Positions 1 to 38,651 of a stretch of DNA of 38,651 bases are shown piece by piece. The stretch lies in the IMG/VR virus record IMGVR_UViG_3300045241_000022, positions 1-38,651 of that record; one strand, 5' to 3'. The position numbers and the translations under genes were made by a program. The notes beneath the pieces are model-generated. The model was given only the letters and a program-made list of their open reading frames with translations. It did no database searches and was not told where the DNA came from. The stretch's first letter is position 1; each line of letters starts with the position of its first letter. The DNA is from a virus.

Positions 1-39
1 CTCAACTTTTACACACACCGCGCAGCGTGACCCTCGGTA

Positions 40-19767: not shown

Positions 19768-19787
19768 TCCCCAACCTCACCCCGTTC

Positions 19788-19841
19788 GAGCCCTCGCCGT
19801 CGCGCCTTCCCTTCCCTGGGGCGCACGGCGAGGGCTCTTTT
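19788..19841 (+). terminator. Rho-independent terminator of the late operon
   Basis: GAGCCCTCGCCGT (19788-19800) pairs perfectly over 13 bases with ACGGCGAGGGCTC (19825-19837), with further GC pairing inside the 24-base loop, and is followed by a T-run on the plus strand. It separates the late genes from the minus-strand lipoprotein. Confidence 0.88.
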
Positions 19842-36953: not shown

Positions 36954-37336
36954 CCGCCGTGTTCCCCGGCGACGAGCAGGCCGCCTGCATCGACCAGCCT
37001 CCTGCCGTCTTCTTCCCGCACGGTGCCACCGGGCGTCCACGACGCGGCCAGTACGTCTATGACCGCTACGCCCGAGCCCGCCTCGTGTGCGCCACCTGCC
37101 CCGTCATCGACGCCTGCCGCGCCTACGCCCTCGACGCCGACGAACGCTACGGCATGTGGGGCGGCCTCGACCCCCAGGAACGCTGGGAGATCCGCATTCA
37201 CGAACCACCGCAACGCCAATGCATCGACTGTGCCGAGATGGTCATCGGCCAGGCCCAGCGGTGCCGGCGCTGCGCCCGTGTCCGCGAGACCACGCGGGAC
37301 CGACGACGCAACCTTCAACGACGGCGAGCTTCCTAG
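36950..37336 (+). CDS. WhiB-family regulator with extra zinc ribbon
   Basis: A 128-residue protein with the WhiB iron-sulphur ligands Cys13, Cys47, Cys50 and Cys56 and the family turn GMWGG (68-72). WhiB proteins bind the primary sigma factor and alter transcription; phage versions such as that of TM4 affect host septation and superinfection. Unusually, the C-terminus adds a second C-x2-C-x10-C-x2-C motif (Cys91, 94, 105, 108) and an Arg-rich tail, so it may carry a zinc site as well. It lies near the end of the early operon and could drive the switch to late expression; that is inference. Confidence 0.88.
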   Translation: MTAVFPGDEQAACIDQPPAVFFPHGATGRPRRGQYVYDRYARARLVCATCPVIDACRAYALDADERYGMWGGLDPQERWEIRIHEPPQRQCIDCAEMVIGQAQRCRRCARVRETTRDRRRNLQRRRAS

Positions 37337-37362
37337 ATCCACCACAACCAAAGGGGCAACCA

Positions 37363-37998
37363 TTGGCAACCAAGGCGGGAGACGACATCACCAGGGGTCG
37401 GCTAGCACCCCAGCAACGTAGACACCGTGACGAGGCGGAGCTCCTGCTCCTCCTCGACCCCACCCTCCGATCCGACCTACGACGACTCGGCCACCACGTC
37501 GACCTCGTCGAGATGCACCCAACCGAAACCGACGGCTACAAAGCGAACCACGGCTACGACGGAACCGGATCGGGCGCCAAGTGGACCGTCGTCGAAGGCG
37601 GACAGACCATCACCGTCGACGCCACCAACACCGAAGCGGCCGCCATCAAGCGCACCGCCTACGCCCAACTCGACGAACACACCCGCCACGTCATCCGCGC
37701 CTCACGTCACCGAGCTGAGATGGTCGCCGCCTGGGCCAACATGGTCTACTCCCTCAAGCTCGCAGACCAGGCCCGCGACAACACCGAGGTTCCCGACGAG
37801 AAGACGTGCAGCTCGTGCCGCCGCATCGGTGTCAGCAACCCCGCCGATCACTGGGGCAACGTGGCCGGCAACCTCAAGGACAGCATGTGGACCTGCGCCC
37901 AGTGCTACACGTTCGCCTACCGCAACGGCCGACTACCCACCGCCGACGAGATGGCCCACCACCAGAAGACCGGGCGCTGGAGGTTGAAGGCATCGTGA
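37363..37998 (+). CDS. Zinc-finger hypothetical protein at the end of the early operon
   Basis: A 211-residue protein starting at TTG 37363, chosen because AAAGGGG (37350-37356) lies six bases upstream; the longer open frame overlaps WhiB. A charged helical N-terminus is followed by a mixed region (GYKANHGYDG…) and a helix-rich part. C-x2-C and C-x2-C pairs (CSSCRRIG … CAQCYTFA, about residues 147-187) form a likely zinc ribbon. No family recognised. It ends the early operon; a candidate RNA and a terminator follow. Confidence 0.66.
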   Translation: MATKAGDDITRGRLAPQQRRHRDEAELLLLLDPTLRSDLRRLGHHVDLVEMHPTETDGYKANHGYDGTGSGAKWTVVEGGQTITVDATNTEAAAIKRTAYAQLDEHTRHVIRASRHRAEMVAAWANMVYSLKLADQARDNTEVPDEKTCSSCRRIGVSNPADHWGNVAGNLKDSMWTCAQCYTFAYRNGRLPTADEMAHHQKTGRWRLKAS

Positions 37999-38006
37999 GG
38001 TACACT

Positions 38007-38143
38007 GAGCCAAGCGCTGGCCAGGTTGGCCGTGAAGCCGGGGAGTGGCGCTTCCGGCAAGCGCGGACGCGACCGTCCGAACCTGCGATTCAATGCGGCA
38101 GTGGCGCTCCGCATGAGCCCCGGCTCAGGCCGGGGCTTTCGCT
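38007..38143 (+). ncRNA. Candidate structured small RNA
   Basis: No gene is apparent between 37999 and 38232. A -10-like TACACT at 38001-38006 is followed by three small stems: GGCCA/TGGCC (38019-38031), GCGCTT/AAGCGC (38048-38064) and CGGACG/CGTCCG (38064-38079, four-base loop). A weaker CTGC/GCAG pairing and the terminator hairpin at 38116-38137 complete it. Stacked hairpins ending in a terminator are the plan of a phage small RNA. The promoter lacks a good -35, and read-through from the early operon is equally possible. Confidence 0.4.
38116..38143 (+). terminator. Rho-independent terminator of the early operon
   Basis: AGCCCCGGC (38116-38124) and GCCGGGGCT (38129-38137) form a perfect 9-bp stem with the 4-base loop TCAG, followed by TTCGCTT. 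It separates early transcription from the HNH/terminase region. Confidence 0.72.
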
Positions 38144-38232
38144 TATGCAGCCTCCTGCAAACTGCAAACGCATGGCTGACGTGCATGTTCGCTGCGGATG
38201 TGGTACAAGTACGTCACTGTCGCCCAGAATCC

Positions 38233-38502
38233 ATGGCTAGGGGTGGGGGTGGTTGGCCGTACAACACGGCAGCCTGGCGCTCAGTGCGCCGTCTCGTGCT
38301 GGCCCGCGACGGGTACGCCTGTCAGGTACGGGGCAGCAGATGTAAGGGCAGAGCCACGGACGTGGACCACGTCGTGTCATGGCGTGTCGACCGCAGCCGA
38401 GCGTACGACCCCACCAACCTGCGTGCCTCATGCTCACCGTGCAACGGGCAGCGTGTGCATGGCGACAGTGTCGGTGCATGGTCACCCAGTCGCGACTGGT
38501 AG
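38233..38502 (+). CDS. HNH endonuclease next to the packaging site
   Basis: An 89-residue HNH nuclease: Cys30, Cys37, the DH pair at 45-46 (VDHVVSW), Asn62 (PTNLRASC) and C67-x2-C70. The start at ATG 38233 gives a usual short HNH protein; longer upstream frames run through the terminator. In HK97 and many cos phages an HNH protein beside the terminase is needed for cos cleavage and packaging. With the ends joined it lies just upstream of the terminase genes, separated by the cos region, which fits this role. Confidence 0.85.
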   Translation: MARGGGGWPYNTAAWRSVRRLVLARDGYACQVRGSRCKGRATDVDHVVSWRVDRSRAYDPTNLRASCSPCNGQRVHGDSVGAWSPSRDW

Positions 38503-38651
38503 CTCACACACAGTGATCTAAATATCAGAGGCGGGGGCGGCACCCCACCCCCCGGTACCCCCACCCCCCGCCATGTGTGGTGAAACGTGGCGGGGTAATC
38601 ACTGTGCGTAATCGAACGCCGTTCTTTAGCGCGTACACCCCCCACCAGGAC
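38503..38651. other. Genome right-end non-coding DNA, probable cos region
   Basis: No gene was seen. It holds nested inverted repeats: CACAGTGAT (38509-38517) with ATCACTGTG (38599-38607), and inside it CCCCGCCA (38567-38574) with TGGCGGGG (38589-38596), plus runs of C and G at 38531-38570. Joined to positions 1-87 it forms a non-coding region of 236 bp between HNH and terminase genes. The exact cut site and overhang cannot be read from the sequence. Confidence 0.5.

Follow-up and report, generated by a model that had tools for sequence, protein, structure and literature searches.

A predicted intrinsic terminator at the junction of early and late genes in a presumed actinobacterial phage

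Terminators at the ends of phage operons are well known, and the one described here is a new example. In mycobacteriophages L5 and D29, the late terminator lies in the gap between genes 32 and 33 and is an intrinsic terminator at the end of a phage operon (PMC5712189). L5, D29, and StarStuff also produce an abundant noncoding RNA of about 500 nt at the right end of the genome; it starts from the early promoter, Pleft, and a stem-loop terminator is not evident in it (PMC5712189). In Stx phages, the StxS RNA is made between PR' and tR' (PMC7873438). The locus considered here, positions 38001 to 38143, belongs to a virus record of 38,651 bases, which was analyzed over its whole length and is referred to below as the window. 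The window encodes TerL, a portal protein, a head maturation protease, an HK97-type major head protein, and a tape measure protein, as well as an integrase, a PD-(D/E)XK exonuclease, a RepA-like AAA protein, an FtsK-like protein, and WhiB. It looks like the genome of a temperate phage of an actinobacterium, a host suggested by the presence of WhiB, the G+C content of 67%, and the kin of its TerL.

The stretch sits between the stop codon of the last right-arm gene (TGA, 37996–37998) and the HNH gene, the correct frame of which is the one listed in Table 1 and not the open reading frame at 38198–38521. The HNH, terminase, and capsid genes run on past the genome end. The protein encoded by the last early gene is basic/coiled in its N-terminal part and carries two CxxC pairs at its C terminus. 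It has no family match in Pfam or PHROG; when three sequences were compared, it showed weak similarity (E 3e-4 to 4e-3) to the last early genes of the related contigs L010, L021, and L150. The last early genes of the window, these three contigs, and L141 appear to form a fast-changing protein family with a coil, a GYP/GSG stretch, and CxxC pairs. Because its place at the junction is constant, this family is a candidate late-gene regulator.

Table 1 Features of the junction between the early operon and the HNH gene, with the second strong terminator of the window
Feature	Position	Strand	Details
Second strong terminator, GAGCCCTCGCCGT..ACGGCGAGGGCTC-TTTTGCGT	19788–19837	+	13-bp stem, 24-nt loop, tail TTTTGCGT
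Last gene of the right-arm (early) operon	37369–37998	+	From translation; true start not fixed, open frame from 37087
TACACT, possible -10 box	38001–38006	+	Best -35 TGGAGG at 37978–37983, spacer 17, 3 of 6
Untranslated spacer, read as the 3' untranslated region of early RNA or, should TACACT act as a promoter, as a leader	38007–38115	+	No coding signal; fold z -0.28
Hairpin 1, GGCCA GGT TGGCC	38019–38031	+	5 bp, loop 3; predicted pairing probability ~0.9
Hairpin 2, GCGCTT CCGGC AAGCGC	38048–38064	+	6 bp, loop 5; predicted pairing probability 0.00, outcompeted
Hairpin 3, CGGACG CGAC CGTCCG	38064–38079	+	6 bp, loop 4; predicted pairing probability ~0.9
Weak fourth hairpin	38093–38114	+	6 bp, 10-nt loop; predicted pairing probability ~0.35
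Intrinsic terminator hairpin, AGCCCCGGC TCAG GCCGGGGCT, then TTCGCTTA	38116–38137	+	9 bp, loop 4, -19.4 kcal/mol
Possible 22-codon reading frame, doubtful	38172–38239	+	Overlaps the HNH start; direct reading of sequence
HNH endonuclease gene, first downstream of the terminator	38233–38502	+	PF01844 E 1.2e-6; PHROG 144 and 589

We read this stretch as the place where the early operon ends, made up of an untranslated 3' spacer and an intrinsic terminator at the early-to-late switch point, with a probability of roughly 0.6. RNA polymerase would travel rightward through the right-arm genes, complete the last early gene at 37998, pass about 115 nt of untranslated spacer, and halt at the terminator hairpin, which would shut early transcription off from the HNH-terminase-capsid genes. 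Early transcription presumably reaches this hairpin, which probably works as a terminator in the host, and the hairpins ahead of it are likely to have no role of their own, being incidental or at most protective of the 3' end. The original prediction had offered three readings. A strong terminator at the early/late boundary favors one of them, the 3' end of the early transcript; the other two, a regulatory RNA and an RNA for packaging, went unsupported.

The terminator consists of a GC stem and a four-base loop followed by the tail TTTCGCTT, with a predicted pairing probability of 0.94 to 0.99, the value for the ensemble of 38007–38147 being about 0.99. It is thus a stable, GC-rich, short-loop hairpin of the kind that characterizes intrinsic terminators. 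Its T tract is broken, and the tail TTCGCTTA behind the 9-bp stem contains 4 T in 8, which passes a looser scan but fails a stricter one requiring 5 in 8. Across the genome, a scan allowing loops of up to about 35 nt detects two strong terminators on the plus strand, this one and that at 19788–19837; when loops are restricted to 3 to 8 nt, only the hairpin at the junction appears, the other emerging with longer loops. The minus strand holds three weaker candidates, and shuffled genomes yield 0 to 4 per strand. The second strong terminator lies directly behind the last gene of the structural operon, and the positions of the two, at the early end and behind the structural operon, suggest that each closes one long operon. 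The lowest fold z-score among the sampled windows, -4.4 at 19781, falls at the structural-operon terminator.

All the elements of the original prediction are present where it placed them: three perfect stem-loops of 5 to 6 bp, a weaker fourth, and then the terminator, in a gene-free stretch with a TACACT box separated from the stop codon by GG. No recognizable genes lie in the stretch, where each of the six frames has a negative codon score. The further claim, that such an order of hairpins is unusual for spacer DNA, was not borne out, as only the terminator clearly stands out from chance in 38001–38143. The whole stretch with the terminator folds with z = -1.66 relative to shuffles; once the terminator is removed (38001–38115), z is -0.28 and 36% of shuffles are equally stable. 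Likewise, 38012–38115 gives z = -0.16, so no extra stability lies outside the terminator. Hairpins 2 and 3 have base 38064 in common, and the pairing probabilities of the hairpins in Table 1 refer to the predicted ensemble of 38007–38147. For three nonoverlapping perfect hairpins, shuffling this stretch gives P = 0.012, but at least three occur in 1.4% of the 115-nt windows taken across the whole genome, so that several such windows are expected when the genome is read end to end. The hairpins upstream of the terminator are therefore at about chance level for GC-rich DNA. The spacer also carries a twelve-base direct repeat, GGNAGTGGCGCT, with one mismatch (38041–38052 and 38097–38108, 56 nt apart); sites of this type show no enrichment in the genome.

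Searches for relatives of the spacer gave the following results. Rfam returned no match at the gathering score in the window, and the best subthreshold match, sX6 (E 0.001, 21.3 bits versus a gathering score of 40), covers only the terminator end of the model and was rejected as terminator similarity. When the right arm and the leader were compared with phage records by blastn, nothing or chance pieces were recovered, and blastn and nhmmer searches of the leader against 173 fetched loci gave chance pieces only. The 17-mer of hairpin 2 matched five viral contigs with flanks unlike those of the window, and the pattern of hairpin 3 had zero matches among the viral contigs searched. A search of 396 genomes of one phylum, run without a positive control, revealed no leader match. 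Across Rfam, phage records, fetched relatives, and these genomes, no relative had sequence alignable to the leader of the window. Of the proteins used as queries, TerL recovered relatives; the product of the last early gene, HNH, and FtsK recovered none that were close.

The relatives reached via TerL are viral contigs at 50 to 60% identity. Those that extend to the junction share one order: early genes, often including WhiB, lead up to a last early gene that often encodes CxxC pairs, and beyond a gap come HNH and TerS-TerL. The closest near-complete comparator, L150 (37,468 bases), is near the window in size, has the same kind of end sequence at its start and a right arm related to that of the window, and its gap holds neither a terminator nor a row of hairpins. 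The window (1–20), L032 (1–20), L039 (1–20), and L150 (as AATTTACACAC, contig end) carry a TTTTACACAC-like motif no more than about 10 nt from the start of the contig, and the motif is also found between a small frame and HNH in L008 (470) and L013 (808). The motif probably marks a cohesive genome end, and the window may therefore be a complete linear genome.

No terminator is present at the junctions of the near relatives L150, L010, L028, and L029, so the layout does not always include one, and the idea that a terminator generally precedes HNH was rejected, with 0 of 71 distant junctions having one. The L099 junction has a terminator hairpin (z -2.6) with a tail much like that of the window. 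What tends to fall in the gap after the last early gene in relatives is a promoter-like site. In L013 (TTGACA-18-CAACAT), L008 (TAGACA-17-TAACAT), and L028/L029 (TTGACA-18-CATGAT), these sites are matched by 0 to 4% of shuffles; those of L134 and L010 are weaker (16%), and those of the window (25%) and L099 (68%) are at chance level. All were scored against an E. coli-like consensus, which fits actinobacterial promoters only partly, and the count leaves out two junctions, L021 and L141. Just after the promoter-like site, L008, L013, and L134 each have one hairpin that is stabler than shuffles (z -2.4, -4.4, and -2.5, respectively). Behind this leader hairpin, small frames with a high content of aspartate, glutamate, and proline were observed (L008 ~327–405, L013 ~661–735, and L134 ~1045–1180; MSDVP.., MTDTPQPD..). 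In the window itself, TACACT is the sole copy of this hexamer, compared with an expected 3.75, and a sigma-70 scan of 37000–38651 with the same partly fitting consensus called no promoter, TACACT included.

These observations bear differently on the possible readings. The assignment of the stretch to the 3' end of the early operon is supported by the recurrence of the order of last early gene, HNH, and TerL in relatives, as well as by a spacer that folds like its shuffles, contains a hairpin 2 that is not predicted to form, and gave neither an RNA family at the gathering score nor a leader relative in the searches above. The broken T tract and the lack of a call in the stricter scan count against it, as do the missing terminators of L150, L010, L028, and L029 and the several relatives with a promoter-like site exactly there; such a site would fit a separate transcript. 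Such a transcript is the core of the main rival, a late leader resembling lambda pR'-6S-tR', which we regard as a tentative possibility. TACACT would serve as a promoter with a start near 38012, the resulting RNA of about 130 nt would end at the terminator, and a phage factor, perhaps the product of the last early gene or WhiB, would be needed for read-through into the late genes. The layout fits, with the box lying 2 nt after the last early gene and followed by the leader, the terminator, and the late genes, HNH and terminase being downstream of 38116–38137. The promoter-like sites of L008, L013, and L028/L029 occupy the same place, and the stable hairpins behind the site in L008, L013, and L134 and the terminator hairpin in L099 are consistent with this arrangement. 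However, the best -35 box of the window is poor and readily equaled by shuffles, no promoter was called in the region, and most relatives lack a terminator behind the promoter-like site. Moreover, no antitermination factor was identified in the part of the window's genes that was searched, and the last early gene matches neither Pfam nor PHROG. It is doubtful that the early/late switch of this presumed actinobacterial phage group is an antitermination-style checkpoint, that is, a lambda-like arrangement made from unrelated parts.

A trans-acting small regulatory RNA, whether transcribed from a promoter within the stretch or processed from the 3' end of the early transcript, is unlikely. Both origins have precedents among phage RNAs (StxS, PMC7873438; D29/L5 right-end RNA, PMC5712189), and a distinct regulatory RNA, as originally predicted, would fit the promoter-like site that relatives have at the same spot. 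It is unsupported in the window, where structure outside the terminator is no better than chance, hairpin 2 is not predicted, the -35 box is poor, the searches found no conservation, and the only low-E Rfam match, sX6, is limited to the terminator end of its model. An attenuator is very unlikely. In this case, AGCCGGGG (38036–38043) would pair with CCCCGGCT (38117–38124) in the 5' arm of the terminator and thus create an antiterminator/terminator switch. The two are perfect 8-nt complements with a duplex energy of -18.6 kcal/mol, compared with -19.4 for the terminator, and their pairing appears briefly at 38124–38130 in growing-chain folds, but an equally long complement occurs in 4.5% of shuffled leaders and the equilibrium probability of the pairing is 0.00. 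Finally, it is extremely unlikely that the stretch acts as an RNA or DNA packaging element or contains a short coding frame. The genome end and the terminase genes are nearby, and a 23-codon GTG frame (38045–38116) stops at the terminator. However, packaging RNAs are known from phi29-like phages, whose motor differs, and this phage has an ordinary TerL; coding within the leader was rejected given the negative codon scores, and the purine run of the GTG frame abuts the GTG, too close for a ribosome site.

If the stretch is indeed the terminator and 3' spacer of the early transcript, it marks the end of the early operon and aids annotation of a group of phages that only metagenomes have revealed. 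Were it a late leader instead, the early-to-late gene switch in such phages could be studied simply at this site, and since promoter-like sites and leader hairpins recur at the junction in relatives, that reading is testable by mapping of transcript ends. Compared with described systems, the stretch resembles the right-end RNA of L5, D29, and StarStuff in being untranslated and near the right end of an actinophage-like genome, but no sequence relation was found, and because the L5/D29 RNA starts at an early promoter and lacks a stem-loop terminator, the two are not the same thing. With lambda pR'-6S-tR' and StxS, it shares an arrangement in which the last early gene is followed by a possible promoter, a short stretch that is not translated, a terminator, and the late genes, whereas it differs in its weak promoter match, the lack of a known antiterminator or a sequence relation, the host group, and the absence of the terminator from most of its relatives. 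Although it would end an early operon and has a broken T tract, the predicted terminator of the window resembles the late terminator of L5 and D29 in combining a GC-rich hairpin with a partly T-rich tail and in lying where a long phage operon gives way to a gap without genes.
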